Assembly (NCBI RefSeq): GCF_014764365.1
Contig: NZ_CP061718.1
Span: forward strand, 2,930,501 to 2,994,500
Source of the DNA: Roseococcus microcysteis
Lineage (GTDB): Bacteria; Pseudomonadota; Alphaproteobacteria; Acetobacterales; Acetobacteraceae
Reading direction: 5' to 3'
DNA: 64,000 bases
This document shows, in pieces, positions 17,679 through 56,778 of this stretch. Under the pieces are notes generated by a model, which saw only the letters and a list, made by a program, of their open reading frames with translations, was not told the DNA's origin and did no database searches. The translations under genes were made by a program, and so were the position numbers. How positions within the stretch are numbered: position 1 is the stretch's first letter; each line of letters opens with the position of its first letter.

Positions 17679-18478
17679 TGGCCGGGCGGCTGGCGGGCAA
17701 GCGCGCCCTGATCCTGGGCGCGGGCTCGGTCGGCGTGGGCGTCGGCAATGGCCGCGCCATGGCCATCCTCTTCGCGCGCGAGGGCGCGCAGGTGGCCTGC
17801 GTGGATTACCGGATGGAGGCGGCGGAGGAGACCACCGCCATGATCGCGGCCGAGGGCGGGCAGGCCTTCGCCCTCGCCGCCGACGTCACGCAGGAAGCCG
17901 AGATCACGCGCATCATGGAGGCCACCATGGCCGCCTTCGGGCGCATCGACATCCTGGTGAACAATGTGGGCGGCAGCGTGCCCGGCGGGCCTGAGGAATT
18001 GACGCCCGAGATGTGGCACAAGCAGTTCCACCACAACCTGCACTATGTGCACCTCTCCACCCGCGCGGTCCTGCCCATCATGGTGAAGCAGGGGGGCGGG
18101 GCGATCGTGAACCTCTCCTCGGTCGCGGCGCACCGGAACATCGGCAATGATTTGATGGCCTATGCGGCATCGAAGTCGGGTGTCACGGCGCTGAGCCGGA
18201 TGATCGCGGTTCGCTACGCGCCGCAGGGCGTGCGCTGCAATGTCGTCACACCCGGGCTGATGCACACGCCGCTGGTCGAGGCGCGCCTCGCCGGCCAGCG
18301 CACGGGCGGCGATGTGGCGGGCATCATCGCGAAGCGCAACGCGCAGCCGCCGATGGGGCGGATGGGCGATGCCTGGGACATCGCCTATGCGGCGCTGTAT
18401 CTGGCTTCGGACGAGGCGAAATACGTCACGGGCGCCGAGATCATCGTGGATGGCGGGCTGACGCTGAAGACGCCGTAG
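17678..18478 (+). CDS. SDR-family oxidoreductase
   Basis: A classical SDR of about 266 residues with a slightly long cofactor loop (LILGAGSVGVGVGNGRAMA). NNVGG replaces NNAG. Catalytic residues are present: NLSSVAAH (Ser) and YAASKSGVTALSR (Tyr and Lys). The C-terminus GAEIIVDGGLTL is typical. ATG 17678 overlaps the epimerase stop by one base and has GCGGGGGGA upstream; GTG 17675 is an alternative. It is coupled to the epimerase, suggesting both act on the same sugar- or hydroxy-acid-type substrate, which I cannot name. A covarying hairpin (18478-18525) begins at its stop codon. Confidence 0.87.
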   Translation: MAGRLAGKRALILGAGSVGVGVGNGRAMAILFAREGAQVACVDYRMEAAEETTAMIAAEGGQAFALAADVTQEAEITRIMEATMAAFGRIDILVNNVGGSVPGGPEELTPEMWHKQFHHNLHYVHLSTRAVLPIMVKQGGGAIVNLSSVAAHRNIGNDLMAYAASKSGVTALSRMIAVRYAPQGVRCNVVTPGLMHTPLVEARLAGQRTGGDVAGIIAKRNAQPPMGRMGDAWDIAYAALYLASDEAKYVTGAEIIVDGGLTLKTP

Positions 18479-18525
18479 CGCGTGATCGTCGGAGGGCGGC
18501 ACGCCCGGAGGCGTGAATCACGCGC
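18478..18525 (+). repeat. Nested 3' hairpin element, copy A
   Basis: Outer stem GCGCGTGAT / ATCACGCGC (18478-18486 with 18517-18525), inner stem GGGCG / CGCCC, invariant GATCG and GTGAATC. It begins at the last base of the SDR stop and lies in the gap before the convergent DinB gene. There is no T-tract. It is a member of the six-copy family described in the findings. Confidence 0.75.
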
Positions 18526-18530
18526 CAAGC

Positions 18531-19046
18531 TCAACTCCAGTCTGCTTCCGCGATCACCCAGGGCAAATCCGTGTCCTGGGTCTTCGCGCCGAAGCGCGTC
18601 AGCAGCGCATGCACCTGCCCGCGATGATGCGTTTGGTGGTTGAACAGATGCGTCACCAGCAGCCAGCGCGGCCGGCGCATCTCGCGGCCCGTGGCGCCGC
18701 TGAACCAGGTCAGGTCGCCTTCGAGATCGGCCGGCGTCAGCGCGGCCGCCCAGCCCTGCATGCGCGCATCCATCGCGGCGCGCGCCGCCCGCAGCGCGTC
18801 CCATTCCTCGACCAGCCGCGTGCTTTCCGCGATGCCACCCGCCGGCCGGTCCCAGCCGGCGAAGCGGCTCATCCAGATGCTGTCGCCCCAGAGCAGGTGG
18901 CACAGCGTGGCGTGGATGCTGCCGAAAAAGATGCCGCCATCCTCGCGCCGCTGGGCGTCCGTCAGCGTGGCGGCCGCGTCGTAGAGGCGGCGGTTCATCT
19001 CCGCATTGTAGGCCGCCATGGCGCGGACATGGGCGGGGCTGATCAT
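18531..19046 (-). CDS. DinB-family protein
   Basis: The 171-residue four-helix-bundle protein carries the DinB/DUF664 metal-binding His set: HATLCHLLWGD near residue 46, then THLFNHQTHHRGQVHALL near residue 132. DinB-like proteins bind a divalent metal; some are thiol-dependent transferases, most are uncharacterised. Start ATG 19046 overlaps the stop of the upstream double-GNAT gene by 4 nt, so the pair is co-translated. The C-terminus is complete (ends EADWS). Confidence 0.87.
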   Translation of the reverse strand: MISPAHVRAMAAYNAEMNRRLYDAAATLTDAQRREDGGIFFGSIHATLCHLLWGDSIWMSRFAGWDRPAGGIAESTRLVEEWDALRAARAAMDARMQGWAAALTPADLEGDLTWFSGATGREMRRPRWLLVTHLFNHQTHHRGQVHALLTRFGAKTQDTDLPWVIAEADWS

Positions 19047-20035
19047 GCGGGGACCTCCTTGAAGAAGAAGACCACGTCCTGCTTCTCGCGCCGCGCATCC
19101 AGTTCGCAGCGTGGAATGCGCCCGGCCTCCCGCCAGCCCAGGCGGCGGTAGAGCGCCTCGCCCGCCTCGCCGCCGCGGGTGTCGAGCGTGAGCAGCTTCC
19201 GGCCCAGCCGCTCGGCCGCCTGTTCGGCACGGCGCACCAGGGCGGTGCCCACGCCGCGCCGGCGCAGCGCCGGGTCCACCAGCAGCTTCTCCACCTCCAC
19301 GCGGTGGGGCTGGTTCTCCTGGCTTTCCAGATGCAGCTGCACCGTCCCCGCCAGCACGCCATCGAGCCAGGCCACCAGCAGCAGCCGGTGGTTCTGCGCG
19401 ACCTCGGTGCTGACGCGCTTCCAGAAGCCCCGCGCCTTCTCGCGCGACATGGGCGGCAGGAAGGAGACGGAGGCCCCCTCCGCCACGCAGCCGATCAGGA
19501 TGTCGGCCAGCCGCCGTTCCGCGCTGGCGGCGGCGGCCGCGTCCAGCGCCTCCACCACCAGGCCCTTCAGCGGCTTGCCGTAGCGGAATTCCAGCGATTT
19601 CGAGAGGTCATCCAGGATGCGGATGGCGCCCGACCGCACATAGCCGCGCTTCTCGTAGAAGGCGTGCGCCGCGTCGAAGCGCGTGTCGGTCCAGAGCACC
19701 AGGCGCTCGGCCCCCGCCGCGCGGGCATGGGCCTCGGCCGTGTCCAGCAGCCGGTGCGCGAGGCCGCTGCCCCGCGCCCCCGCATCCACATAAAGCCGGC
19801 AGATCTCCCAGGCATCATCAGCGCCCAGCGGACGGGTGGCGACCATGCCCTGCCCATCCTCGCTCAGCCACAACGCCCCGCCGCTGCCGGCGAAATAGGT
19901 GGCGAGCGCGCGAAGCTCCGGCAGCTCCGCGTCCAGGTCGAAGATGCAGCCGGGGAACTCCGCCCAGGCGTCGCGGATCAGGCGGATGAAGGCCTCGGCG
20001 TCGCCATCGCGGCCGGGACGGATGGCGACCCCCAT
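19043..20035 (-). CDS. Tandem GNAT acetyltransferase (two domains in one protein)
   Basis: A 330-residue protein with two complete GNAT folds. Domain 1 (about residues 1-150) has ICRLYVDAGARGSGLAHRLL as its acetyl-CoA loop and FYEKRGYVRSG at the end. Domain 2 (about 165-330) has VEKLLVDPALRRRGVGTALV and LYRRLGWREAG. The R/Q-X-X-G-X-G/A signature is clearest in domain 2 (RRRGVG). The substrate is unknown. ATG 20035 lies 2 nt after the aspartate aminotransferase stop, so it belongs to the minus-strand run aspartate aminotransferase, double GNAT, DinB. Confidence 0.87.
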   Translation of the reverse strand: MGVAIRPGRDGDAEAFIRLIRDAWAEFPGCIFDLDAELPELRALATYFAGSGGALWLSEDGQGMVATRPLGADDAWEICRLYVDAGARGSGLAHRLLDTAEAHARAAGAERLVLWTDTRFDAAHAFYEKRGYVRSGAIRILDDLSKSLEFRYGKPLKGLVVEALDAAAAASAERRLADILIGCVAEGASVSFLPPMSREKARGFWKRVSTEVAQNHRLLLVAWLDGVLAGTVQLHLESQENQPHRVEVEKLLVDPALRRRGVGTALVRRAEQAAERLGRKLLTLDTRGGEAGEALYRRLGWREAGRIPRCELDARREKQDVVFFFKEVPA

Positions 20036-20037
20036 GC

Positions 20038-21240
20038 TCAGCGCAGTGCCTCGCAGAAGGCCTTGATGCGGGCCATCGCCTCGGTCAGCTCGCCCATGTT
20101 GGTGGCGTAGCTGATGCGGATATAGGGCGACATGCCATAGGCGCTGCCCTGCACCACCGTCACATGCGCCTCCTCCAGCAGGGCCATGGCGAGTTCGGTG
20201 TCGGTCGTGATCTTCGTGCCGGCCTTGGTCGTCTTGCCCAGGCAGCCCGAGACGTTCGGGAAGACGTAGAAGGCGCCCTCGGGCTTGTGGCAGACAATCC
20301 CGGGGCACTGGTTCAGCGCATCCACCACGAAGTCGCGGCGGGCCAGGTATTCGGCCGCACGCTCCTTCACGAGATCCTGCGGGCCGTCCAGCGCGGCGGC
20401 GGCGGCGGCCTGGCCGATGGTGGAGACGCCCGAGGTCGCCTGGCCCTGCATGTTGAACATGGCCTTGATGAGGTTCTTCGGCCCGCCGCAGAAGCCGATG
20501 CGCCAGCCCGTCATGGCATAGGTCTTGGAAGCGCCGTTCACCGTCAGCGTGCGGTCGCGCAGGCCGGGCTCGACCTCGGCGATCGTGCAGAACTCGAACC
20601 CGTCATAGACGAGGTGCTCATACATGTCGTCGGTCATGACCCAGACATGCGGGTGGCGCATCAGCACATCGGCCAGCGCCTTCATCTCGGCGCGCGAGCA
20701 GGCCGCACCCGTCGGGTTGTTGGGGAAGTTCAGCATCACCCACTTGGTCTTGGGGGTGATGGCCGCCTCCAGATCCTCCGGGCGCAGCTTGAAACCGTTG
20801 TTCTGCGGGCAGTTCACCGTGACCGGCACGCCGCCCGCCACCTTCGCCATGTCCGCGTAGCTGATCCAGTAGGGGGCGGGGATCACCACCTCGTCACCCG
20901 GGTCGAGGGTCGCCATCAGCGCGTTGTAGATGGCCTGCTTGCCGCCATTGGTCACCAGGATCTCGTCATCCGAGAAGTCCAGGTTGTTGTCGCGCTTGAA
21001 CTTCCGGCGGATGGCGGCCTTGAAGGCCGGCGTGCCGCCCTGGGGCGGATATTTGGTGTCGCCCTTCAGCGCCGCCTGGTGGGCGGCCTCGATGGCATGG
21101 GCGGGGGTGGCGAAATCGGGCTCGCCGGAGTTCAGCGCGATGACCTTGATGCCCTGGGCGGCCAGTTCCCGCGCCTTCATCCCCATGACGACGGAAGCGG
21201 AAACCTGGACATCGGCGAGGCGACTGGCGAGGGTGGGCAT
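20038..21240 (-). CDS. aatA: Aspartate/aromatic aminotransferase, class I (PLP)
   Basis: A 400-residue fold-type I aminotransferase. GEPDFATPAH is at the N-terminus, KYPPQGGTPAFK follows, NFPNNPTGA is the cofactor-phosphate/substrate region, DDMYEHLVYD binds the pyridine, and NGASKTYAMTGWRIG contains the Schiff-base Lys. The C-terminal YIRISYAT carries the substrate Arg. This is the AspAT I-gamma type that interconverts aspartate and 2-oxoglutarate in alphaproteobacteria. ATG 21240 (MPTLASRL) fits the family; the longer frame to 21513 is not needed. It is divergent from accA. Confidence 0.92.
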   Translation of the reverse strand: MPTLASRLADVQVSASVVMGMKARELAAQGIKVIALNSGEPDFATPAHAIEAAHQAALKGDTKYPPQGGTPAFKAAIRRKFKRDNNLDFSDDEILVTNGGKQAIYNALMATLDPGDEVVIPAPYWISYADMAKVAGGVPVTVNCPQNNGFKLRPEDLEAAITPKTKWVMLNFPNNPTGAACSRAEMKALADVLMRHPHVWVMTDDMYEHLVYDGFEFCTIAEVEPGLRDRTLTVNGASKTYAMTGWRIGFCGGPKNLIKAMFNMQGQATSGVSTIGQAAAAAALDGPQDLVKERAAEYLARRDFVVDALNQCPGIVCHKPEGAFYVFPNVSGCLGKTTKAGTKITTDTELAMALLEEAHVTVVQGSAYGMSPYIRISYATNMGELTEAMARIKAFCEALR

Positions 21241-21332
21241 GGTCAATTCCTGAAGCGGTGTGAAAGGCGGGCGCATCCTAGGTCCGGGCCGGGGCCGCGC
21301 CAATATGCGGGGGCATTGCGTCACGGGAATGC

Positions 21333-21371
21333 AACCCCACGCGGGCGGCAGTTTCCGCCGCGCGGGGTTTC
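21333..21371 (+). promoter_or_regulatory. GC-rich leader hairpin upstream of accA
   Basis: AACCCC...CGCG..CGGC (from 21333) can fold with GCCGCGCGGGGTT (to about 21370) over AGTTTCC. It ends 18 nt before the accA ATG. It is terminator-shaped but has only TTT after it; leader control of accA is possible but unproven. Confidence 0.35.
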
Positions 21372-21388
21372 GGCTAAGCGGCACCCCC

Positions 21389-22345
21389 ATGCGCCACTTC
21401 CTCGATTTCGAAAAACCCATCGCCGAGCTGGAAGGCAAGCTCGAGGAGCTGCGCCGCACCACGGATGCGGGCGGGCTCGACCTGCACGAGGAGATCGAGA
21501 AGCTCCGCGACAAGGCAGAAAAGCTGCTGGCCGCGACCTATGCCAAGCTCACCCCCTGGCAGAAGGCCCAGGTGGCCCGCCACCCCGAGCGGCCCAAATG
21601 CCTGCACTATGTGGAGGCCCTGATCGAGGATTGGACGCCCCTGGCCGGCGACCGTGCCTTCGGGGAGGACGCGGCCATCATCAGCGGGTTGGGCCGGTTC
21701 CGTGGCCGCCCGGTGGCCGTGCTGGGCACCGAGAAGGGCCATGACACCGAAACCCGGGTGAAGCACAATTTCGGCATGGCCAAGCCCGAGGGCTACCGGA
21801 AGGCCAGGCGCATCATGCAGCTGGCCGGGCGGTTCAACCTGCCGATTCTCTCCTTCGTGGACACTTCCGGCGCCTTTCCGGGGATCGAGGCGGAGGCGCG
21901 CGGCCAGGCGGAAGCCATCGCCCGCTCCATCGAGGCGGGGCTGGAGGCGCCGGTGCCCTTCGTGGCCACCATCATCGGCGAGGGGGGGTCGGGCGGCGCC
22001 ATCGCGCTGGCCACCGCCGACCGGGTGCTGATGCTGGAGCACGCCATCTATTCCGTCATCAGCCCCGAGGGCTGTGCCAGCATCCTGTGGCGCGACGCCA
22101 CCCTGGCCCCCCAGGCCGCCGAGGCACTGAAGCTGACGGCCGAGGACCTCAAGCGCCTCAACCTGATCGACACCGTGATCACGGAGCCGCTGGGCGGCGC
22201 CCACCGCGACACCGCCGCCACGCTCGCCAGCGTGGGCGATGCGGTGGCGGCGGCGCTGGACCCCCTGCTGAAACTGGACGGACCCACGCTAAAGGCCCGG
22301 CGGCGCGACAAATTTCTCGAAATGGGGCGAAGCGCGGTAGCCTGA
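21389..22345 (+). CDS. accA: Acetyl-CoA carboxylase carboxyltransferase subunit alpha
   Basis: AccA joins AccD to transfer the carboxyl group from carboxybiotin to acetyl-CoA, the first committed step of fatty-acid synthesis. The 318-residue length is standard. It opens MRHFLDFEKPIAELEGKL, then DRAFGEDAAIISG, GHDTETRVKHNFGM and PEGYRKA. The core is FVDTSGAFPGIEAEARGQ and GEGGSGGAIALA, and SPEGCASILWRD follows. ATG 21389 fits other AccA proteins; the upstream frame to 21260 is leader. It is followed by the MFS gene after 4 nt. Confidence 0.96.
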   Translation: MRHFLDFEKPIAELEGKLEELRRTTDAGGLDLHEEIEKLRDKAEKLLAATYAKLTPWQKAQVARHPERPKCLHYVEALIEDWTPLAGDRAFGEDAAIISGLGRFRGRPVAVLGTEKGHDTETRVKHNFGMAKPEGYRKARRIMQLAGRFNLPILSFVDTSGAFPGIEAEARGQAEAIARSIEAGLEAPVPFVATIIGEGGSGGAIALATADRVLMLEHAIYSVISPEGCASILWRDATLAPQAAEALKLTAEDLKRLNLIDTVITEPLGGAHRDTAATLASVGDAVAAALDPLLKLDGPTLKARRRDKFLEMGRSAVA

Positions 22346-22349
22346 GGGC

Positions 22350-23833
22350 ATGACCCCCCGCCCGCCTTCTCCCCCGCCGAAGCCCGGCGGTCCTTCCTGC
22401 GGGCCTTTCCCACCATCGCGGTGGCCATCTTCATCCCGGCCATCGACACCACCATCACCGCCACCGCCCTGCCCGCCATGGCGGCGGAGTTCGGGGTGGT
22501 GGAGCGCATTTCCTGGGTGGTGGTGGCCTACCTCATCGCCGCCACCATCGCCGCCCCGGTCTTTGGCCGGCTGGGCGATGCCTTCGGCCGCCGGCGCATG
22601 CTGATGCTGGGTTTCGTCATGCAGGGGGCGGGCATGCTGGCCGCGGGGCTCGCGCCCAGCTTCGAGGCGCTGCTGGCCGCCCGCCTGCTGCAGGGCTTCG
22701 GCGGCGGCGCCCTGCTGACGCTGGCCATGGCCCTGATCGGCGAGAGCCTGCCCCCGCGTGAGCGCGGCCGCTACCAGGGCTACCTGGTGGCCTGCTTCAT
22801 GAGCGCCTCGGCCACCGGGCCGCTGGCGGGCGGGTGGCTGACCCAGGCCTTCGGCTGGCCGGCCGTCTTCCTCGCCGGGCTGCCACTGGTGATCCTGGGC
22901 GCGGTCGCGGCCTATACCCTGCCGCGCCGGCCCATCTCCGGCGCCGGCTTCCGCTTCGACCTGCCGGGCACCCTCCTTTTCGCCGTCTTCGTGCTGACCC
23001 TGGTGCTGATGCTGGACCGCATCCAGGCCCTGCGCTGGGATGCGGCGGTGTGGGCGGCGGTGTTCGGGGTCGTGGCGCTGGGCGCCCTGCTGGCGCTGGG
23101 CGTGGTCGAGCGACGGATGCCGGACCCGCTGCTGCCTTTGCCCCTGCTGGCGCACCCGGCCATCTGGCGCCTCTCCATCCTGTCGGCCTGCGTGCAGGGG
23201 GTACTGGTGGCGCTGATCTCCTTCCTGCCGCTCTATCTCTATGCGGTGCGGGATGTGCCGCTGGCCACGGTCGGCGTGCTGCTGCTGCCGATGAGCGTGG
23301 GCGGCGGGGTGGGCGCCTTGATCTCCGGGCAGTTCATGGCGCGCACGGGTCGGAACATGCTGCTGCCCTCCATCGGGCTGACGGCCTCGGCCGTGCTGCT
23401 CTCGGGGCTGGCCTTTGTGGGGCAAGACATCCCGCTGGCCTGGCTGCCCTGGGTGCTGGGGGTGGTGAGCTTCTGCTTCGGCACCTCCTTCCCCGTGGTG
23501 CAGACCACGGTGCAAGTGGCGGCGGGGCCGGCGCAACTGGGTGTCGCCACTGCCTCGGTGCAGTTCATGCGGAACCTGGGCTCGGCGGCCGGGACGGCCA
23601 TTCTCGGCACCATCATTTTCGGCACTTTCGCCTTGGCCGATGCCGTCCTGGCCGAACGCTTCGCCACCGTGCTGCGCGGCGGGCGGGAGGCACTCGCCGC
23701 GCTGCCGGTGCTGGAGAGGGCCGCCATGGCGGCGGGCCTCTCGGGCGGCTACCGCGCGATGTTCGCGGGGGCCGCCGCCATCATGGCCTTGGCCGCCGTG
23801 ATGGCCTGGCGGGTGCCGCTGCGCCGGGTCTGA
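22350..23833 (+). CDS. MFS drug:H+ antiporter-2-type transporter (14 helices), start region probably frameshifted
   Basis: A major-facilitator transporter with about 14 helices, motif A as GRLGDAFGRRRM, and motif C-like SASATGPLAGGWL. These place it in the DHA2/EmrB-like efflux group. In frame, the first usable start is GTG 22421, but that cuts into helix 1. Upstream, the same frame reads FSPAEARRSFLRAFPTIAVA, plainly coding. It would join ATG 22350 (MTPPPAF...) if the C run at 22353-22358 held seven C instead of six. I therefore give 22350 as the start and flag a likely one-base deletion. ATG 22350 lies 4 nt after accA. Confidence 0.82.
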
Positions 23834-23838
23834 GCCTT

Positions 23839-23870
23839 GGCGCCTGATCCGCCACGGTGAATCAGGCGCC
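23839..23870 (+). repeat. Nested 3' hairpin element, short copy F
   Basis: GGCGCCTGAT (23839-23848) pairs perfectly with ATCAGGCGCC (23861-23870). The inside CCGCCACGGTGA keeps the family's GTGA-ATC side and has only a 3-bp inner stem. It lies 5 nt after the MFS stop and before the convergent SDR end. It may act as a terminator for either side, although no T-tract follows. Confidence 0.7.
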
Positions 23871-23879
23871 CCGACAAGG

Positions 23880-25151
23880 TTACAACCCGACGCTGTGCCG
23901 CAGCCGCTGGGCGGCGTCGCGGGCATTGTCATACCCACGTTCGAACCAGCTTCGGTTGTCCCAGCGGGGCATCCAGCCGCGTTGACGGCCCCAGCCATGG
24001 TCGGCCGCATAGTCGCTCAGGTAGCGGCCGGCATCGCGGGCATGGCTGCTGGCATAGCGCCCGGCATCATGGGCGTGGCTGCTCAGATAGCGGCCCGCAT
24101 CATGCCCGTAGTGGTTCGCCATGCGCCGCGCATAATCCCAGTAGCTCTCCCGCGCCGTGCCGCGGCACAGCGCCGCGATCCCCAGCACGCCGAGCGTCAT
24201 CAGCGCCAGCGACGTGACGGGATACATCTTCGCGGTGGTGTAGAGGCTGTTGCTGAAGGTGTGCCCCTGGTCGCCATAGCGCTTGCCGTCCTCGCCCGCG
24301 CTGTGCAGGTTCTTGGGCGTGTCGCGCTTTGGCACGCCCGGCTGCCGCGCCGTGCGGAAGAAGGCGAAGCTGAACACCTGGTCCGCCAGCAGCGGCACGG
24401 TGCGCGTCAGCGCGATCATGAAGCGGCCCCAGCCGCCCACCACCAGGTCCCGCGTCGGGTGGACGGCGGCGTGCAGGATGGCCTTGGCCACCACCTCCGG
24501 CGCGTAGACCGGCGGCGGCACCTGGCTCTTCTCGTCCATGTAGTTCTGCGCGTGCTCGCCAAAGGGCGTGTCAATGCCCGAGGGCTGGATCAGCGTGATG
24601 CGCGCGGGGCTGCCCTCATGGATCATCTCCAGGCGCAGGCTGTCCGTGAAACCCTTCACCGCGAACTTCGACGCCGTGTAGGCGCTGAGGATGGGCGAGG
24701 GCATCTCGGACGAGATCGAGCCGATGTTGATCAGCGTGCCACCGCGCTTCTTCAGCGTCTTGAGCGCCTCGGTGGAGCCATAGACCACGCCCCAGTAGTT
24801 CGTCTGGAACAGCTTCTGGTGGTCCTCGTCGGACATCTCCTCGAGCTTCGCATAGGCGCCGATGCCGGCATTGTTCACCCAGGTGTCGAAGCCGCCATAG
24901 GTGGTGTTGGCCACCTCCGCGATCTTCGCGACATCCTCGCGCACGCCCACATCGGCCACGACCGTGGTGCACTGCCCGCCGGCGGCCTTGATGGCGGAGC
25001 AGACGGTCTCCAGCGCTTCCTCGTTGCGGGCGGCCATGACCACCTTCGCACCGCGCTTCGCGGCCATGCAGGCGGTGGTGAGCCCGATGCCGGAGGTCGC
25101 GCCGGTGATGACGATGACCTGCTGGTTCAGGGGTTTGGCTTTACGCGCCAT
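23880..25151 (-). CDS. SDR oxidoreductase with membrane segment and repetitive C-terminal tail
   Basis: A 423-residue protein whose first 255 or so residues are a complete SDR: ITGATSGIGLTTA, WVNNAGIGAY, NIGSISSEMPS (Ser), and YTASKFAVKGF (Tyr, Lys). A linker leads to one hydrophobic segment at about residues 325-343 (VTSLALMTLGVLGIAAL). A tail of about 80 residues follows, with three 11-residue repeats (HDAGRYLSSHA, HDAGRYASSHA, RDAGRYLSDYA) and a Trp/Arg-rich end. The enzyme is thus probably membrane-tethered with an amphipathic tail. ATG 25151 has TCGGAGG upstream. The substrate is unknown. Confidence 0.85.
   Translation of the reverse strand: MARKAKPLNQQVIVITGATSGIGLTTACMAAKRGAKVVMAARNEEALETVCSAIKAAGGQCTTVVADVGVREDVAKIAEVANTTYGGFDTWVNNAGIGAYAKLEEMSDEDHQKLFQTNYWGVVYGSTEALKTLKKRGGTLINIGSISSEMPSPILSAYTASKFAVKGFTDSLRLEMIHEGSPARITLIQPSGIDTPFGEHAQNYMDEKSQVPPPVYAPEVVAKAILHAAVHPTRDLVVGGWGRFMIALTRTVPLLADQVFSFAFFRTARQPGVPKRDTPKNLHSAGEDGKRYGDQGHTFSNSLYTTAKMYPVTSLALMTLGVLGIAALCRGTARESYWDYARRMANHYGHDAGRYLSSHAHDAGRYASSHARDAGRYLSDYAADHGWGRQRGWMPRWDNRSWFERGYDNARDAAQRLRHSVGL
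24006..24104 (-). repeat. Three 33-bp tandem repeats coding the SDR tail
   Basis: Units 24072-24104, 24039-24071 and 24006-24038 (in coding order) each encode an 11-residue DAGRY repeat. The DNA of the units is closely similar but not identical, so selection on the peptide or recent expansion are both possible. Confidence 0.75.
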
Positions 25152-25209
25152 GTGCTGCCTCCGATGAATTGGCGCGACGGAGGGCCGCCGCATCTCGGGA
25201 GCTAACCGA

Positions 25210-26391: not shown

Positions 26392-26489
26392 GGGTCATCC
26401 TATGCGCGGCGAAACGCCCTATTGCAAACCTGGGGGGCGAAACCAAAACATCCCCAGTCATCCTCGAAATCCCCCCGGGAGAAACCTCC

Positions 26490-27470: not shown

Positions 27471-27479
27471 TATGCGTGG

Positions 27480-27504
27480 GGGCGGGGCGCCATGCCCCGC
27501 CCTT
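27480..27504. terminator. Terminator hairpin between two convergent Bug genes
   Basis: GGGCGGGGC (27480-27488) pairs perfectly with GCCCCGCCC (27494-27502), loop GCCAT, followed by TTG. It lies 9 nt after the stop of the plus-strand Bug gene and 8 nt before the end of the minus-strand one, so it may serve both directions. Confidence 0.7.
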
Positions 27505-27511
27505 GCCGCCC

Positions 27512-28640: not shown

Positions 28641-30055
28641 ATGGCGAAGGAACGCACCCGCTTCGTCTGCCAGTCCTGCGGCGCCGTCCATCCCAAGTGG
28701 CAGGGCCGCTGCGATGGCTGCGGCGAATGGAACACCCTGGTCGAGGAAGCCGCCCGCACCGGACCCGGCCCCGGCGCCAAGGCGCCGCCTGGCAAGGGCA
28801 TCACCATCCTGGGGCTTCAGGGCGAGACCGCGCCCCCGCCCCGCCACCTGACCGGCATCGCGGAGCTGGACCGCGTGCTGGGCGGCGGCTTCGTCCCGGC
28901 CTCGGCCGTGCTGGTGGGGGGGACCCGGGCATCGGCAAGTCCACCATCCTGTTGCAGGCGGCGGCGCGGATGGCCGGCGCGGGCAAGCGCGTCCTCTACA
29001 TCTCGGGCGAGGAGGCGGTGGCGCAGGTGCGGCTGCGCGCCCAGCGCCTGGGGCTCACCGACAGCCCGATGGGATTGGCCTCGGCCAGTGCGCTGCGCGA
29101 CATCACGGCCACGCTGGAGCATGAGCGCGAGGCCGCGCTGGTGGTGATCGATTCCATCCAGACCATGTGGCTGGACACGCTGGATTCCGCGCCGGGCACG
29201 GTGGCCCAGGTGCGCGCCTGCTCCAACGAGTTGATCCGGCTGGCGAAGTCCCGCGGTTTCGCGCTGGTGCTGGTGGGGCATGTGACGAAGGAGGGCACCC
29301 TGGCCGGCCCCCGCGTGCTGGAGCACATGGTGGACGCCACCCTCTATTTCGAAGGCGACCGAGGGCATCAATTCCGCATCCTGCGCGCGGTGAAGAACCG
29401 CTTCGGCGCCACGGACGAGATCGGGGTCTTCGAGATGACCGAGGGCGGGCTGATGGAAGTCCCCAACCCCTCGGCCCTCTTCCTGGCCGAGCGGCGCGGC
29501 AACATCTCGGGCAGCGCGGTCTTCGCGGGGCTGGAGGGCACGCGGCCCGTGCTGGTGGAGGTGCAGGCGCTGCTGGCCCCTTCCTCGGGCGGCTCGCCGC
29601 GCCGGCAGGTGGTGGGCTGGGATGGCGGGCGGCTCAACATGCTGCTGGCGGTGCTGGAGGCGCGCTGCAACCTCACCTTCGCCCAGGCCGATGTCTATCT
29701 GAACATCGCGGGCGGGCTTCGCATCAACGAGCCGGCGGCGGATCTGGCCGTGGCCGCCGCCCTGGTCTCCGCCATGACCGACCGGCCCACGGAGCCCGAT
29801 GCCGTCTATTTCGGCGAGGTGGGCCTCTCCGGCGAGGTCCGGCAGGTCTCCCAGGCCGAGCAGCGCCTGCGGGAGGCCCAGAAACTGGGCTTCGGCCAGG
29901 CCGTGCTGCCGCGCCGTGTGGCGCGCGGTTCCAAGCAGCCCGCCCCGGTGGAGGGGCTGCGGCTGACCGAGATCGGGCACTTGGCGGACCTGGTCGCGCC
30001 CTTCGCGGCGCAGACGGTGCGGCGCCGCTCCGGGGCCAAGGGTGACGCGGGGTGA
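28641..30055 (+). pseudogene. radA: DNA repair protein RadA, frameshifted at the Walker A motif
   Basis: RadA is a RecA-like branch-migration ATPase with an N-terminal zinc finger and a Lon-type C domain. The zinc finger reads CQSCGAVHPKWQGRCDGC (residues about 10-27). The frame breaks at the G run 28916-28922: the first frame gives VLVGGTRAS, while the next frame gives GDPGIGKSTILLQ, the Walker A motif. One G is missing (seven, eight expected). Beyond it everything is intact: VVIDSIQTMW (Walker B), the RadA-specific KNRFGATDEIG, and the Lon-like domain to 30055. Sequencing error is the likely cause. Confidence 0.88.
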
Positions 30056-30080
30056 CGCCCCGGCTATACCGCGCCGCATC

Positions 30081-43069: not shown

Positions 43070-43109
43070 ACGCGCTTCCTTTCCGTGCCGCGCGGGCTAG
43101 GCTGCCCGC

Positions 43110-46133: not shown

Positions 46134-46201
46134 CCTGCGGGGCTTGATCCCGGTATGGCGCGCGCCCATTCCATGCGCGCACCAACAGGACATTGCCCCA
46201 C

Positions 46202-47406: not shown

Positions 47407-47421
47407 GACGCCCGCACCCCT

Positions 47422-47442
47422 TATGTTGACGATGTGAACATA
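47422..47442. promoter_or_regulatory. Palindromic operator between the DUF2306 gene and tetR
   Basis: TATGTTGAC-GAT-GTGAACATA has half-sites of 9 bp matching at 8 of 9 positions with a 3-bp spacer. It lies in the divergent gap. A second, weaker half-site GTCAACAT (about 47459-47466) overlaps the first codons of the regulator gene. The arrangement is typical of TetR autoregulation. Confidence 0.65.
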
Positions 47443-47457
47443 GCGGGAATGTGAGCG

Positions 47458-47970: not shown

Positions 47971-48020
47971 CAGCCCGCCCGTTCCGCCGTAAGGCCTTGG
48001 GCGCGGAGAGGGAGTTGCGC

Positions 48021-49541: not shown

Positions 49542-49565
49542 CGCGCCCGCGCGTGGCACATCACA

Positions 49566-49612
49566 GCGTCTGATCGGCTTCGGCCATCTTGCCGAAGCCG
49601 TGAATCAGCCGC
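49566..49612 (+). repeat. Nested 3' hairpin element, copy B
   Basis: Outer stem CTGAT/ATCAG (49570-49574 with 49604-49608). Inner perfect 9-bp stem GGCTTCGGC/GCCGAAGCC over CATCTT. Invariant GATCG and GTGAATC. Follows gpmI. Confidence 0.78.
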
Positions 49613-49637
49613 TCGACAATGAGCAAGGAGCTTGACC

Positions 49638-50582
49638 ATGGCGCTGCGCGTCGCCGTCCAGATGGACCCGATCGAGAGCATCAACATCGATGGCGACAGC
49701 ACCTTCGCCATGATGCTGGAAGCCCAGGCGCGCGGCCACACGCTCTGGCACTACCATGTGCGCCACCTCTCGCTGAACGCGGGCCGCGTGCTGGCCCAGG
49801 CGCACCCCGTCACGGTGAAGCGCGCCAAGGGCGACCACTACGTCTTCGGTGAGCCGGTGGAACTCGACCTCGGCCGCGACGTGGATGTGGTGCTGATGCG
49901 CCAGGACCCGCCCTTCGACATGGCCTACATCACGGCCACGCACATCCTGGAACACATCCACCCCAAGACGCTGGTGGTGAACGACCCCGCCCAGGTCCGC
50001 AACGCGCCGGAAAAGCTCTTCGTCACCCATTTCCCGGAGCTGATGCCCGAGACGCTGGTGACGGCCGACACGCGGCAGATCGCGAAGTTCCGCGCGAAGC
50101 ATGGCGACATCATCGTCAAGCCGCTCTTCGGCAATGGCGGCGCGGGCGTCTTCCACCTGCGCCCGGATGACCCCAACCTGAACTCGCTGGTGGAGATGTT
50201 CACCGAACGCTCGCGCGAACCCCTGGTGGTCCAGCAATACCTCCCCGCCGTGCGCCTGGGCGACAAGCGCGTGATCCTGATTGACGGCGTGGCCATGGGC
50301 GCCATCAACCGCGTGCCCGCCGAGGGCGAGGCGCGCAGCAACATGCACGTCGGCGGCCGCGCCGAACCCACGCAGCTGACCGACCGCGAGCGGGAAATCT
50401 GCGCCCGCATCGGGCCGGAGCTGAAGAAGCGCGGGATGATCTTCGTGGGCATTGACGTGATCGGCGGCTACCTCACCGAAATCAACGTCACCTCGCCCAC
50501 CGGCCTGCAGGAGCTGGCGCGCTTCGACGGCATCCACCTGGAACGCGCCATCTGGGACGCGATCGAGGAAAAGCGGAGGTAG
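49638..50582 (+). CDS. gshB: Glutathione synthetase
   Basis: GshB joins gamma-glutamylcysteine and glycine with ATP. The 314-residue protein has the GshB N-domain ([20 protein letters not shown], then [14 protein letters not shown]) and an ATP-grasp core with [18 protein letters not shown] and [32 protein letters not shown] near the end is the Mg/substrate region. ATG 49638 follows AAGGAG at 7 nt. It stands alone. Chain-degrading ChaC lies elsewhere in the window (14620-15270). Confidence 0.95.
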
Positions 50583-50592
50583 CTTTTCCGCC

Positions 50593-50640
50593 CGGCCGAT
50601 TCACGCCCCGGCTGCGCCGGGACGATCGGACGGCGCTACC
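50593..50640 (-). repeat. Nested 3' hairpin element, copy D
   Basis: Read on the minus strand: CCGAT...ATCGG outer stem, inner CCCGGC/GCCGGG over GCA, invariant GATCG and GTGAATC. It lies in tandem with copy E, 48 nt apart, between trpE and the convergent gshB. Confidence 0.75.
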
Positions 50641-50688
50641 CGGCCGATTTACGCCGCCGGCTGCGCCGACGACGATCGGACGGGGGGC
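50641..50688 (-). repeat. Nested 3' hairpin element, copy E
   Basis: Read on the minus strand: CCGATCGTCGTCGGC on the left, GCCGGCGGCGTAAATCGG on the right. It has the GTAAATC variant of the conserved half. It begins at the trpE stop, so it is the first hairpin transcribed after that gene. Confidence 0.75.
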
Positions 50689-52187
50689 CTACCCGCCCCC
50701 CGCCGCGAACCTCACCGCCTCCTCCGCCGCGCGGAACAGCGCGCGGGCCTTGGCGATGCATTCCTCATGCTCGGCGCGGGGGTCGCTGTCGGCCACCACG
50801 CCGGCGCCGGCCTGGACGTGCAGCTGGCCTTCCTTCACCAGCGCCGTGCGCAGCGCGATGCAGATGTCCATGTTGCCGTCCACGCCGAAATAGCCCACGC
50901 CGCCCGCGTAAAGGCCGCGGCGCGAGGGCTCCAGCTCCTCGATGATCTCCATGGCGCGCACCTTGGGCGCCCCCGACAGCGTGCCCGCCGGGAAGCCCGC
51001 CTGCAGCGCGTCCAGCGCCGAAAGCCCCGGCCGCAGCCGCCCCCGCACCTCGGAGGCGATGTGCATCACCTGGGAATAGCGCTCGATGCGGAACTGCGCC
51101 GTGACGCGGACCGAGCCGATGGCGGCCACCCGCCCCACATCGTTCCGCCCGAGGTCGAGCAGCATCAAATGCTCCGCCCGCTCCTTGGGGTCCGCCAGAA
51201 GCTCGGCCTCCAGCGCCGCATCCTCCTCGGGCGTGGCGCCGCGGCGGCGCGTGCCGGCGAGCGGGCGGATCGTCACCTCGCCATCCTTGGCGCTGACCAG
51301 GATTTCGGGCGAGGCCCCCACCACGGCAAACCCGCCATGGTCGAAGAAGAACAAATAGGGCGCGGGGTTGATCCGCCGCAGCGCGCGATAGAGGGCGAAG
51401 GGCGGCAGGGCGAAGGGCGCCGTGAAGCGCTGCGAGGGCACGATCTGGAAGGCATCACCCGCGCGGATGTATTCCCGCGCGCGCTCCACGGCCGCCATGT
51501 AGCCCTCGGGCGTGAAGTTCGACACGGGGGCGGGCTGCGGCGCCAGCTTCGCGGGGGCGCGGGGCGGGGCAGGGGGCGGGCCAGGGCGGCCTCGGCCTCG
51601 TCCAGCCGCGCCTGCGCCTCGGACCAGGCGGCTTCGGCATCGCCGCCGGCCTCGGCCCAGACGGGTGTCACCAGCGTCAGCGCGTCGCGGACATGGTCGA
51701 AGACGGCCACCAGCGTGGGCCGGATCATGATGGCGTCGGGGATGCCCAGCACGTCGGGGTTGGTGCTGGGCAGGCGCTCCATCAGACGCACCATGTCGTA
51801 GCCGAGATAGCCGAACAGCCCCGCCGCGATGGGCGGCATGCCGGGGGGCAGGGGCATCCGCAGCGCCTCGACGCGGGCACGCAGGGCCTCCAGCGCCGGC
51901 GCCTCCTCCGGCACGAAGGCATGGGGCGCGGAAAGGGCCTGGGTGTTGCACTCCGCCACCCCGTCGCGGCAGCGCCACACCAGGTCCGGCGCCATGCCGA
52001 CGGCCGAGAAGCGGCCCCGCGCGGCCCCGCCTTCCACGCTCTCCAGCAGGAAGGAATGCGGCTTGCCGTGGGCAAGCTTCAGGAAGACGCCCACAGGCGT
52101 CTCCAGGTCCGCCACGCGCTCGCGCCAGAGAAGCTGGTTCTCGCCGCGCGCATAGGCGTCGCGGAAGGCGCTGTCCGGGCCGCTCAT
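50689..52187 (-). pseudogene. trpE: Anthranilate synthase component I, frameshifted once
   Basis: TrpE turns chorismate into anthranilate with TrpG. The N-terminal half from ATG 52187 has [18 protein letters not shown] (tryptophan-binding LLES) and [17 protein letters not shown]. The frame breaks in the G-rich stretch 51551-51585, between [12 protein letters not shown] and [13 protein letters not shown]; one base is missing. The second half has [39 protein letters not shown] and [11 protein letters not shown], then [20 protein letters not shown], complete to 50689. The start overlaps the ppiD stop (ATGA). trpG is not adjacent. Confidence 0.9.
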
Positions 52188-54085
52188 GGCAGCGAATTCC
52201 CCGCCACGCGGTCCATCATGCGCGGGTTGATCCGCACATCGGCGCGCGCGCGCAGCGCCGCCTGGTATTGCCGCTCGATGTCGTCGGCCATGCGCTGGGC
52301 GCCCGTGGCGCGCACGGCGGCGATGGGCTGCTCCTGGCCCGTCAGGTCGGCCGGCGTCACGCCCGTCAGCTGGATCACGGCGAAGGATTGCGGCAGCTCC
52401 ACCATGGTCACGCCATTGGCCGCCAGCTCGAAGGTGGGCGCCAGCAGGTCGCGCGGCATGGGGTTGCCGCCGCCCGGCTCGCGCCCGAAGGGACCGAGCG
52501 CCTCGGCGGTGATGCCGGCGGCCTCGGCGGCGGCGGCCAGGGTCTGGCCGCCCCGCACCGCGGCCAGCAGGGCGGCGGCGCGCGCATCCTGGGCGCGGCG
52601 GCGGGCATCGGCCATGTAGGCCGCCACCACCTCCTCGCGCACCTCCTCGAGCGGGATGAGGCTGGGGGCGATCACCTCGTTCACCTGGGCGGCCATGAAG
52701 CCCCAATCGCCCTCCTGCAGGCGCACATCGGCGTTGGGCGCCTGGGCGAAGATGGCGCGGATGGCGGCCTCGCGCGCCGCGTCCGCCACGGGCAGTTCGG
52801 CGGGCGTGCCCTCGGGCGTCTGGCCCGTCGCGTCCATCCGCACGCGCGCATAGGCCAGGTCATAGCGCTGGGCGATGTCGGCCAGCCCCACGCGCCCGGC
52901 CAGCGCATCCTCGATGCGGTTGGCGCGGTCGAAGGCGACATCGGCGGCGCGCTCGGCCGCGATCTCGTTGCGGAGTTCGTCCCGCACTTCGGCCAGTTCA
53001 CGCCGGCTGGGCGGCGTCACCTCCACCACCCGCAGCACATGCCAGCCGAAGGGCGACTGGATGGGGGCGGAGATGGTGTCCGGCGCCAGGGCGAAGGCGG
53101 CATCGCCCAGGGTGGCGATGGGCAGCTCGGCCTGGGTGGTGGGCGGCAATTCGCTGGCGGCGGCGCCCTCGGCGCGGGCGGCGGCCTGGAAGGTGGCGAA
53201 GTCGGGGGCGGCGGCCCAGGCCTCGGCCAGGGCGCGGGCCTGGGCCTCCTCCTGCACGATCACCTGCTGGATGCGCCGGCGCTCGGCCACCTCGAAGCGG
53301 TCGCGGGCGGCGGCGTAGGCGTCCTCGATCTCGCGCTCGCTCACCTCCACCGCGGCCATCAGCCGCTCGGCGTTCATGGTGATGACGCTGACGTCGCGGA
53401 ATTCGGGGGTGGAGAACAGGGCCGGGTTGTTCTCGTGGAAGCGGGCGAGCTGCGCCTCGGTCGGCGCCTCGGGCTCCGGCGCCTGGGCGAAGGGCAGTTC
53501 CACCAGCGTCACGCTGCGCCGTTCCAGCGACCAGCCCAGCAGGCGGCGCCCGGCCGTCTCCGGCAGGGCGGCGCCCGCCCGCACCGCGCCCGACATCTGC
53601 TGCCGGGCGAGGTCGGTGCGGAGCAGGCCCAGGAAGAAGGGCTCGCTCATGTCGTTGTTGCGCAGGAAGCTGTTGAAGATCTCGCGCGAGAAGCGGCCAT
53701 CCGCCCCCTGGAAGCCGGGGATGCGGAACACATAGTCGCGCACCGCGTCATCGGGCACCACCACGCCCATCCGCGCCGCCTCCTGCTGGAGCACGCGGTC
53801 GAGGACCAGGCCCTCCACCACCTGCTCGGCCACGGCGCGGCGCATGGCGGCGTCCGGCTCGAACCGGCCCTGGAGCGCGCGGCTGATGCGCTGCAACTCG
53901 CGCCGCGCGGCCTCCTGCGCCTCGGGCGCCTCGATGGCCTGGCCCGAGACGCGGGCGACGCTGTCGTCCCGGCCGATGCCGCGGATCATGTCCTCGATCC
54001 CCCAGACGGCGAAGGAGAGGATCAGGAGGATGAAAAGGACCTTGGCGGCCCAGGTCGCGGCCATGCGGCGCATGAAGGTGATCAT
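52184..54085 (-). CDS. ppiD: PpiD/SurA-type peptidyl-prolyl isomerase, membrane-anchored
   Basis: A 633-residue periplasmic folding factor. One anchor helix is at residues about 14-32 ([19 protein letters not shown]). The SurA_N_3 chaperone region follows, with [16 protein letters not shown] rotamase (parvulin) domain lies around residues 245-365, with [19 protein letters not shown] at its end; the parvulin-type active-site acids are weakly conserved, as in other PpiD proteins. ATG 54085 ([15 protein letters not shown]) is preferred to 54124. The end overlaps trpE by 4 nt, so ppiD-trpE form an operon, divergent from tpiA. This pairing is common in alphaproteobacteria. Confidence 0.88.
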
Positions 54086-54166
54086 CCCGCGCGCATAGCG
54101 CGCCCACGGGCTGTTGCCAAACACCGGCCTCGGCTATCCCTCCCCCGCAAAGAAGGAAGCAGGCCC

Positions 54167-54916
54167 ATGACCCCAGGGATTCGTCCCCTCATCGCCGGCA
54201 ACTGGAAGATGCACGGGACCGTGCGCGAGGCCGCGCGCCTCGCCGAGGCGGTGCGCGAGGGGGTGGAGGGCGTGGACCTGCTGGTCTGCCCGCCCTTCCC
54301 CCATCTCCACACCGTGTCGGTGGTGCTGCTGGGCGGGCGCGTCGCGGTGGGCGGGCAGGATTGCCACGCCGCCGCCAAGGGCGCCCATACCGGCGATGTG
54401 AGCGCGGCCATGCTGCGCGATGTGGGCGCCACCCATGTCATCCTCGGCCATTCCGAGCGCCGGGCCGACCATGCCGAGAATGACGCCGTCGTGCTGGCCA
54501 AGACCAAGGCGGCGCTGGCCGCGGGCCTCATTCCCATCGTCTGCGTGGGCGAGACCGAGGCCGAGCGCCTGGGCGGCCTCGCGGAATCGGTGGTGCGCGG
54601 CCAGCTGGAGGGGTCCATCCCCTATGGTTTCGTGACCGCCGGCGGCATCGTGGCCTATGAGCCCGTCTGGGCCATCGGCACCGGCCGCACGCCGACCGAG
54701 GACGACATCACGGCCATCCACGCCACCATGCGCGCCGCCCTGGTGGAACGCTTCGGCCCCGCCGCGCGGACCACGCGGCTGCTCTATGGCGGCTCGGTGA
54801 AGCCGGGCAACGCGAAATCCATCCTGGCCCTGCCCGAGGTGGACGGCGCCCTGGTGGGGGGCGCCAGCCTCGTCGCCGAGGATTTCCTGGCCATCGCCCG
54901 CGCCGCCCCCGTCTGA
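54167..54916 (+). CDS. tpiA: Triosephosphate isomerase
   Basis: TpiA interconverts dihydroxyacetone phosphate and glyceraldehyde 3-phosphate. The 249-residue protein has AGNWKMHG (Asn, Lys), ILGHSERR (His electrophile), [15 protein letters not shown] (Glu base plus flexible loop), and [12 protein letters not shown] (phosphate site). ATG 54167 follows AGAAGGA at suitable distance. serC follows 11 nt later, so the two are probably one unit. Confidence 0.96.
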
Positions 54917-54927
54917 GAATCCCGCCG

Positions 54928-56052
54928 ATGCTGAAGCCCGAACGCCCGTATTTCTCCTCCGGCCCCTGCGCGAAGCGGCCGGGCTTCTCGCTGTCCGCGC
55001 TGGAGGGGGCGCTGCTGGGGCGCAGTCACCGCGCCCCCGCCTCCCGCGCCCGCATGGCCGAGGTGATCGAACGCTCCCGCGCCATCCTCGGCATGCCGGC
55101 GGATTGGCGGCTGGGCATCGTGCCCGCCTCGGACACCGGGGCGGTCGAGATGGCGCTGTGGTCCCTGCTGGGGCCGCGCGGGGTGGATGTGCTGGCCTGG
55201 GAGAGCTTTTCCGCCGAATGGGCGAATGACATCACCCAGGCCCTGAAGCTGCCCGATGTGCGGCTGCTGAAGGCGCCCTATGGCAAGCTGCCCGACCTCG
55301 GCGCCGTGGACTGGGCGCGGGATTGCGTCTTCGTCTGGAACGGCACCACCTCGGGCGTGCGGCTGCCCCATGGGGACTGGATCGCGCCCGACCGCGAGGG
55401 CCTGGCCATCTGCGACGCCACCTCGGCGGCCTTCGCCATGGACATGCCCTGGGACAAGCTCGATGTCGTGACCTGGTCCTGGCAGAAGGTGCTGGGGGGT
55501 GAGGCCGCGCATGGCATGCTGGCGCTCTCGCCCCGCGCCGTGGCGCGGCTGGAAAGCCATACGCCCGCCTGGCCCCTGCCCAAGGTGTTTCGCCTGACCA
55601 AGGGCGGCAAGCTCATCGAGGGCATCTTCAAGGGCGACACCATCAACACCCCGTCCATGCTCTGTGTCGAGGATGCGCTGGACGGGCTGCGCTGGGCGGA
55701 GAGCGTGGGCGGGCTGAAGGGGCTGGTGGCGCGGGCCGAGGGCAATCTCAAGCTGGTGGCCGACTGGGTGGCGCGCAGCAAATGGGCGGAATTCCTGGCC
55801 GAAGACCCCGCCACGCGCTCCTGCACCTCCATCTGCCTGCGCTTCCGGGACCTGGCGCCCGAGCACCAGGCCGAGATCGCGCAGCGCATGGTGACCTATC
55901 TGGAGGCCGAGGGCGTGGCGCTGGACGCCGCCCATTACCGCGACGCACCGCCGGGGCTGCGCCTGTGGTGCGGCGCGACGGTCGAGGCATCCGACGTGGC
56001 GGCGGTCCTGCCTTGGCTGGACGCGGCCTGGGGTGCCGCCAAGCGCGGCTGA
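54928..56052 (+). CDS. serC: Phosphoserine aminotransferase
   Basis: SerC makes 3-phosphoserine from 3-phosphohydroxypyruvate and glutamate with PLP. The 374-residue protein opens with [15 protein letters not shown], and [13 protein letters not shown] follows. [16 protein letters not shown] and [15 protein letters not shown] precede the Lys in [11 protein letters not shown]. This is the longer alphaproteobacterial branch of SerC rather than the E. coli type. It starts at ATG 54928, 11 nt after tpiA. Confidence 0.93.
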
Positions 56053-56090
56053 ACCTTCCGGATGGGGCAGGGCGGCCCTATCTGCCGGGC

Positions 56091-56732
56091 ATGATCGTCC
56101 GCCGCGCCTTGCCCGCCCTGTTGCTCGCAACCCCGGCCCTGGCCCAGCGCCTCTCGCCGCTGGAGGCCACTTCGCCAGAGGCCGCGCCCCTGCTGGCCCG
56201 GCTGCGCGCCGGCGGGCACACCCTGTTCTTCCGCCACGCCGACACCGCCGGCGAACCCTGCGACCGGAGCTTCCGCGTGGGCGACCGGGCGGGGCAGCGC
56301 AACATCTCCCCGCGCGGCCGGGCGCAATCGGCCCGGATCGGTGAAAGGTTGCGAGAACTGGGCGTGCCGGTGGCCCTGCCCGTGCTGGCCGGCCCCGTCT
56401 ATCGCGCGCGCGACACGGCGGAACATGCCTTCGGCGCCGAGAACGTGGTGGTGACGGAAGGCCTGCTGGCCGATGACTATTCCGGACCGCGCCTCGCCTG
56501 GGTGCTGGACCAGCACCGCCGCCTGCTGGCCGAAATCCCGCCGCCGGGGCTGAACCGCGTGCTGGTGGGCCACCGAACGCCCCCCATCATGATCATGGGC
56601 GACCCGGTGGCCGGGCGCGCCTTCCCCGAAGGCGGCGCGCTGGTGGTGGAGCCGCTGGGCCCTGAGGGTTTTCGGCTGCACGGCATCGTGGAATTCGCCC
56701 CTATCCCCGGGGGCGGCTTTCATGCCTGCTAG
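56091..56732 (+). CDS. Secreted histidine phosphatase superfamily protein
   Basis: A 213-residue branch-1 histidine phosphatase. A signal peptide (MIVRRALPALLLATPALA) leads to THTLFFRHADTAG-type sequence: FFRHADTAG carries the catalytic His as RHA, not RHG. Then come SPRGRAQSARIGERL, the Arg in VYRARDTAEHAF, and GHRTPPIMIMG, where the second His is in VLVGHRTP. It probably acts in the periplasm on a small phosphoester; the substrate is unknown. ATG 56091 follows the serC stop by 38 nt. A covarying hairpin (copy C) begins at its stop. Confidence 0.82.
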   Translation: MIVRRALPALLLATPALAQRLSPLEATSPEAAPLLARLRAGGHTLFFRHADTAGEPCDRSFRVGDRAGQRNISPRGRAQSARIGERLRELGVPVALPVLAGPVYRARDTAEHAFGAENVVVTEGLLADDYSGPRLAWVLDQHRRLLAEIPPPGLNRVLVGHRTPPIMIMGDPVAGRAFPEGGALVVEPLGPEGFRLHGIVEFAPIPGGGFHAC

Positions 56733-56778
56733 CGTCCGATCGCCTTCGGCGGGATCGCCGGAGGCGTGAATCGGCCGC
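56732..56778 (+). repeat. Nested 3' hairpin element, copy C
   Basis: Outer stem CCGAT/ATCGG (56736-56740 with 56770-56774), inner GCC..CGGCG / CGCCG..GGC, invariant GATCG and GTGAATC. It starts at the phosphatase stop and ends at the convergent TerB-type gene. Confidence 0.78.

Follow-up and report, generated by a model that had tools for sequence, protein, structure and literature searches.

The DNA considered here is a 64,000-nucleotide stretch of the Roseococcus microcysteis genome (NZ_CP061718.1, positions 2,930,501 to 2,994,500; hereafter the window), in which six short hairpins lie near the ends of genes. These six hairpins are members of a genome-wide repeat family. Most probably they represent one palindrome of the Acetobacterales that resembles repetitive extragenic palindromes (REPs), forms a branch of a wider alphaproteobacterial family, is moved in trans and acts at the 3' end of mRNA. 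A preliminary description of this DNA had offered two readings, a REP-like mobile palindrome and a 3'-end RNA motif. The first is supported by high copy number, by presence/absence and copy-number differences between related genomes, and by tandem arrays. The second gains indirect support from covariation, from the convergent and 3' location of the copies and from an excess of G.U pairs in sense-type copies, but co-directional gaps show no preference for the sense strand. Judging from such sequence evidence, an RNA action at gene ends is likely.

A covarying fold in many copies

Within the 4.21-Mb genome, the exact core pattern gives 98 matches (including one nested pair and a few within coding sequence) versus 0 for a reversed-pattern control. 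A covariance model built from ten copies (R1) gives at least 153 matches at E ≤ 1 over the genome, and 199 matches at E ≤ 0.01 over 97 genome stretches, opposite-strand readings included. After removal of overlapping and opposite-strand matches of one palindrome, 178 elements remained (173 outside called genes, 5 inside; 126 arrays), and the five within called genes were left out of the counts. The preliminary description had regarded a scarcity of further genome hits as grounds for abandoning its proposal; the 98 pattern matches and 178 elements exclude such a scarcity, and the covariance-model search that it suggested, covering this genome and its family relatives, returned many further matches, R1 finding some in 71 of 150 family genomes and at least 38 in several of them. 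In length and number the repeat thus agrees with REPs in the broad sense, that is, with many intergenic copies of a 20-60 bp palindrome (178, of which 5 in genes). No Rfam family matches in the window at the gathering score, and seven further loci gave sub-threshold matches only.

The unit can be written as TA-[GCG-Y-CYGAT-C]-hairpin-[G-TGA-ATCRG-Y-CGC]. A TA(G) tag is followed by an outer stem, which carries a conserved Y.Y mismatch and ends with GAT/ATC. The 3' side has a 3-nt bulge, TGA, and the inner hairpin is variable. Units are mostly 42-56 nt long and occur singly or head to tail. The layout given in the preliminary description lacks the TA(G) that precedes the stem, as well as some of the 6-nt outer stem. 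Its claim of compensatory stem changes is borne out. In an ungapped alignment of 27 de-duplicated copies of one length, not fitted to the structure (alignment A4, with three copies lacking GAT and one with a shifted bulge left out), 12 of 19 pairs are double-changed, and there are 71 double-change cells compared with 19.8 +/- 4.1 in shuffled alignments and at most 18 in slid structures, which excludes an absence of compensatory changes. When other genera and families are included (25 rows), the figures are 13 of 19 pairs and 83 cells versus 26.2. There is little variation in GAT/ATC and in the TGA bulge, the latter being present in 135 of 142 anchored unique copies. However, this invariance is overstated because patterns containing GAT/TGAATC were used to gather part of the element set, a bias that the covariance-model matches soften without removing. 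One stem position holds a pyrimidine-pyrimidine mismatch in 120 of 142 copies and swaps sides (TC 85, CT 18, CC 12, TT 5), and an inner segment is either Watson-Crick paired or a GGA/GGA purine loop. A kink-turn reading of the TGA bulge was rejected, as the opposite strand appears by eye to lack the required GA.

Exchanges in the stem favor G.U over A.C, with a ratio of 82:25 in this genome and 27:5 in relatives. With the purine loop left out of the count, the ratio is 63:21 for convergent and sense copies versus 8:9 for antisense ones (p = 0.038 in a post hoc Fisher test); a first version of the test, using this genome alone and pooling divergent with antisense copies, gave p = 0.076. The asymmetry is weakly consistent with pairing in the transcribed strand. 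A T-tract follows the hairpin in none of 173 copies, which agrees with the preliminary description in that the elements are not ordinary terminators, and the ordinary intrinsic terminator was rejected on this count.

The fold is also present in scattered alphaproteobacterial families. Across the class, R1 finds matches in 7 of 289 genomes and R2, a model built from 25 sequences that include other genera and families, in 16 of 337, with 13 to at least 17 matches in three other families; in a draw from the phylum, R2 finds 7 of 299, all of the same class, including one further genome with at least 17 matches (this genome is counted in each case). The consensus in R2-positive genomes of other families is TAGAGCNNGATC-hairpin-GTGAATCNNGCTCTAA, and in four of these genomes (G227, G473, G211, G331) some of the copies form inverted pairs. 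In a pattern scan of genome contigs, the matches listed include Roseococcus, placed by the NCBI taxonomy in the Roseomonadaceae, Acetobacterales, and other Acetobacterales, and single matches in other phyla were taken as chance. Plasmid searches with elements of the repeat family returned no match for two queries and one weak Streptomyces match for a third.

Gene ends, stop codons and the six window copies

Arrays of the repeat are concentrated between convergent genes. In this genome, the 126 arrays comprise 68 in convergent gaps, 27 co-directional sense, 24 co-directional antisense and 7 divergent; in a contiguous 1.28 Mb of the same-genus genome G124, the 81 arrays comprise 42, 17, 16 and 6, respectively. 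For G124, where the same gene caller was used and 609 gaps of at least 40 bp served as background, convergent gaps hold 42 of 81 arrays and make up 84 of 609 gaps, or 14% (p = 5e-16), whereas divergent gaps, with 6 of 81 arrays versus 155 of 609 gaps (p = 6e-5), are avoided. The convergent/3' preference and divergent avoidance of REPs in the broad sense are thus found in both genomes. The earlier claim of a sense orientation does not extend to co-directional gaps, which show no strand bias relative to upstream genes (27 sense to 24 antisense here, 17:16 in G124). Convergent gaps hold five of the six window copies (A, F, C, D and E); there an element of either orientation reads in sense behind the stop of one of the two genes, so that their being in sense is uninformative. 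Orientation relative to the replication strand shows no clear pattern in coarse counts.

Of 95 arrays located 3' of a sense gene, 49 start with a stem base that is also the final base of the stop codon (TAG 45, TGA 3, TAA 1). In 7 the stop, a TGA, falls within the element; 24 begin 0-15 nt past the stop and 15 farther away. For comparison, TAG makes up 122 of the 504 stop codons among genes called in the stretches. The base before TAG in the 45 TAG arrays varies (GTAG 16, CTAG 15, TTAG 10, ATAG 4). TA is likewise present before 9 of the 31 arrays in antisense or divergent position, and no scoring sense reading frame ends at any of the nine, so the TA(G) is probably a tag of the element itself, forming its tip. 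Among the 46 other 3' arrays, TA precedes the stem in only 5. One subfamily, GCC-N-CCGATCG...ATCGGTGGC, lies antisense in operon gaps at positions 790106, 915231, 1913988 and 4108277 of contig C1 of this genome (loci L177, L179, L193 and L248), at a distance of 1-5 nt from the stop preceding it and 3-7 nt from the called start that follows; in the reverse reading, a Shine-Dalgarno-like GGNGG near ATG can be made out by eye in its outer stem.

In the window itself, all six copies that the preliminary description had listed were found, and R1 with filters off scores each at E ≤ 6.7e-6; its other matches with E < 0.01 are the same palindromes read backwards, the next independent match has E = 0.015, and R2 gives the same picture. 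The core pattern GATCG-N(8-36)-GTGAATC yields five rows, representing four distinct copies, compared with 0.14 expected. Copy A (18478..18525, plus strand; R1 53.7 bits) is a single element in the convergent gap between an SDR gene (+) and a DinB-family gene (-), and its stem begins with the G of the TAG that terminates the SDR gene (18476-18478). Copy F (23839..23870, plus strand; 28.6 bits, E 6.7e-6) is a short variant 5 nt past the MFS stop, in a convergent gap that holds an element in both relatives too, the version in the second same-genus genome, G044, being diverged. Copy B (49566..49612, plus strand; 68.5 bits) lies 24 nt past the gpmI stop and upstream of the co-directional gshB. Copies E (50642..50684; 30.5 bits) and D (50592..50633; 40.2 bits), both on the minus strand, form a head-to-tail pair in the convergent gap between gshB and a chorismate-binding (trpE-like) gene, E being the first unit, 4 nt past the trpE-like stop, and D the second, which starts 55 nt past it. 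Copy C (56732..56778, plus strand; 75.0 bits) is convergent with a DUF533 gene; its stem begins with the G of a TAG stop codon (56730-56732), which terminates a gene that matches His_Phos_1 weakly. The statement that each copy directly follows a stop codon thus holds strictly for A and C, but not for E and F (4-5 nt), B (24 nt) or D (55 nt). Elements occupy four of the six convergent gaps of at least 40 bp in the window. Another short convergent gap (27471-27511, 41 bp) contains a different hairpin (GGGGCGGGGCGCCATGCCCCGCCC) that is present in both relatives too.

Turnover, probable mobility and alternative explanations

The copies turn over like REP elements: at one and the same gap, a related genome may have an empty site, a tandem expansion or a replacement. 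The window was compared with G044 and G124, which are about 93-96% identical to it in aligned blocks. Copy B is present in G044 and absent in G124, copies A and C are absent in G044, where the gene preceding C ends in TGA, and at four gaps the relatives carry copies and the window has none. Of 123 arrays as regrouped across the genome, 51 could be mapped to a relative: 10 are empty there (including #69, empty on inspection, and the doubtful #86 and #99, where the relative lost flanking bases too), 20 have another copy number, 19 have the same, 1 is replaced by another subfamily and 1 is degenerate in both. Turnover of the REP kind is thus seen, in a comparison of species and not of strains: among the 51 mapped arrays, 10 sites are empty and 20 changed in copy number. 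In addition, the relative has a copy in the opposite orientation at two gaps and another subfamily at two gaps. At empty stop sites, the stop falls at the same codon by eye in 7 of 7 comparable cases (TGA 2, TAA 3, TAG 2). A clean 60-nt insertion in G044 relative to the window gap 43070-43109 is the only site of its kind, and one copy (#48) sits in the loop of an apparent terminator hairpin of the relative. Tandem neighbors are head-to-tail in 47 cases (with a 6-10 nt spacer in 46) and inverted within 100 nt in 2, and arrays reach five near-identical units. Similarity between the first spacer and the sequence preceding the array (at least 4 of the last 6 bases) was seen in 10 of 29 arrays and suggests local duplication. 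Two other length differences were seen: at site A in G124 (syntenic with window 18479-18530, L257), a different insertion of about 616 bp directly follows the stop TTAG, and G044 contig C12 has a 786-bp stretch where the window (30042-30059) and G124 have 18 bp.

Taken as a REP-like element, the hairpin would be moved as folded single-stranded DNA by a non-RAYT enzyme acting in trans, and selection would keep copies where no reading frame is harmed. The transcribed hairpin may then act on the mRNA 3' end and slow down 3'-to-5' decay, read-through coming from the opposite gene, or the ribosome at termination, effects that have been reported for E. coli REPs. Several points weigh against this interpretation. 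Neither a transposition event nor a mobilizing enzyme was seen, most empty sites have diverged too far at their 3' boundary for the inserted unit to be delimited, presence/absence differences could partly stem from loss by deletion, and many sites are stable, given that 19 of 51 arrays keep their copy number. In G124 a smaller share of the 3' arrays lies exactly at the stop (21 of 59 start on its last base), the element set of G124 was gathered by patterns containing TGAATC, gene calls come from our own simple caller, paralogous copies are not independent, and the wobble asymmetry is post hoc and weak.

Among the alternatives, a purely functional cis-acting RNA, namely a 3'-end or bidirectional terminator element kept by selection at fixed sites and not mobile, is a possible but tentative explanation. 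It would account for the strong covariation, for 42 convergent arrays among the 84 convergent gaps of at least 40 bp in G124 and four of six in the window, for gaps that retain an element despite a change of orientation or subfamily between species, for the 19 mapped arrays with equal copy number in the relative, and for a G.U excess in sense-type copies only. Such an element fits poorly, however, with empty sites and copy-number change between same-genus genomes, with the nearly even split of co-directional arrays (27:24 and 17:16), with the lack of T-tracts (0/173) and with tandem arrays of up to five near-identical units.

RAYT transposases are the presumed movers of GTAG REPs; membership of the present repeat in that superfamily, with movement by such an enzyme, seems improbable. 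The TAG tip that supplies stop codons is shared with GTAG REPs (PMC3733652), as are the convergent and 3' location and an outer stem ending in GAT/ATC like the E. coli REP consensus (PMC12306157). In contrast, the base before TAG is variable (GTAG in only 16 of 45), the E. coli REP scores only 9.6 bits with R2, and the expected enzyme was mostly not found: the RAYT-type Y1 transposase domain (Y1_Tnp, PF01797, E ≤ 0.001), the one transposase family tested, is absent from this genome and unmatched in 3/3 sampled genus members, in 25 of the 28 family genomes with at least 20 R1 matches (present in 3) and in 12 of 13 R2-positive genomes outside the family (present in 1), while 17 of 150 family genomes have it.

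The repeat might instead be a DNA element built around a CcrM methylation site, since TGAATC holds GAATC (GANTC), as in Caulobacter CIR repeats, which likewise carry GANTC (PMC2229807); we consider this quite unlikely. GANTC occurs in 158 of 173 copies, it is about fourfold depleted in the 1.28 Mb of G124 DNA (942 versus 3385-3677 expected), and the genome encodes a CcrM-like protein with N6_N4_Mtase and RAMA domains. However, changes in TGAATC are not concentrated at the free N (7 at N versus 12 at the next T among 152 unique copies), the other arm of the rhizobial unit discussed below lacks the site, and the family was partly gathered with patterns that contain it. Finally, GC-rich hairpins are common at gene ends, but the chance that these are random palindromes or ordinary intrinsic terminators of a GC-rich genome is practically nil, refuted by the reversed-pattern control (98 matches versus 0) and the covariation (71 cells versus 19.8 +/- 4.1), together with the near-invariant GAT/TGAATC and T-tracts in 0 of 173 copies.

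Returning to the REP-like mobile palindrome, a far-reaching version of it, which we regard as doubtful, holds that these are mobile hairpins inserting precisely at stop codons across the Alphaproteobacteria, moved by a non-RAYT enzyme, acting as a ribosome-sensing 3' switch and uniting the Acetobacterales repeat with RIME-type repeats of rhizobia. An inserted TAG would replace the stop of the gene with its G as the first stem base, so that termination and folding would be mutually exclusive and each insertion would put a ribosome-sensing switch on a gene. Here is an abundant repeat family that differs between close species, in genomes without a detected Y1 transposase, with filled and empty sites side by side, and hence the choice of target (stop codons) and the mobilizing enzyme are directly testable. 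The stop-fused hairpins also provide a natural series for tests of ribosome-hairpin interference.

Relationship to known repeats

No prior description of the Roseococcus repeat was found in a partial literature search, with subscription literature largely outside it. RepRanger reports 1,369 REPs in Lichenicola cladoniae, an Acetobacteraceae (PMC12306157). GTAG REPs, including the REP/BIME elements of E. coli, are also palindromes of 3' ends and convergent gaps whose TAG tip supplies stop codons, and by eye the E. coli consensus (PMC12306157) shares an asymmetric unpaired patch beside GAT/ATC. In most of their families, however, an unpaired terminal GTAG is found in more than 90% of members, whereas GTAG occurs here in 16 of the 49 arrays that start on the last base of a stop; the tag is NTAG with its G paired, no Y1 transposase was found, and units are arranged head-to-tail rather than as inverted pairs. 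The low score of the E. coli REP with R2 therefore makes the likeness one of design, not of family. Ribosome stalling by REPs no more than 15 nt from the stop is cited in the same source (PMC12306157).

CGTC REPs are mostly alphaproteobacterial and have no dedicated transposase (PMC3733652), and in both respects they are like the Roseococcus repeat. They differ in having an unpaired CGTC tag, an 8-9 bp stem starting AT/AT and a short 3' tail, whereas GCGTC here lies within the stem, paired and covarying. Inverted (head-head) dimers predominate in that superfamily, in contrast to 47 head-to-tail versus 2 inverted neighbors here, and according to Di Nocera 2013 (PMC3733652), CGTC repeats are missing in Acetobacteraceae and head-tail dimers are negligible. 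The same work describes conv-REPs within 20 bp of both reading-frame ends and TAG tips that supply stop codons. CIR repeats of Caulobacter and Brucella are likewise intergenic, palindromic and GANTC-bearing, but they are about 110 bp long, with two arms and a linker, and have GANTC at or in the terminal loop (PMC2229807). Br-REP1 and Br-REP2 of Bradyrhizobium are alphaproteobacterial REPs of 3' untranslated regions, one of them transcribed and in a convergent gap (PMC5082802), yet their printed consensus sequences look unrelated by eye. RIME elements are mentioned or cited in PMC2573895 and PMC2873474.

In rhizobia, a palindrome used as query matches 337 plasmid records, and the double palindrome matches 380. 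This double palindrome of about 120 bp we take to be the published RIME element, which Osteras is said to have described from Rhizobium/Sinorhizobium in 1995. Inverted relative to the queried palindrome and about 65 nt from it, the partner arm reaches 33.8-36.5 bits with R2 in five of eight loci (two of them near-identical), and the other arm at most 18 bits. At L358 1496-1625 and its kin, two unlike bulged hairpins are seen, and most of seven copies have CTAG at each outer end. In the RIME-type unit, which is about 110-120 bp long, two different hairpins are joined in inverted orientation, whereas the Roseococcus unit is single or head-to-tail. Nevertheless, one rhizobial arm shares with it the CTAG tag, the outer stem, GAT/ATC, the TGA bulge and the inner hairpin. 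Because this arm matches the model, the novelty of the Roseococcus repeat is lowered; at the same time, one covarying fold would link repeats of two distant alphaproteobacterial orders.

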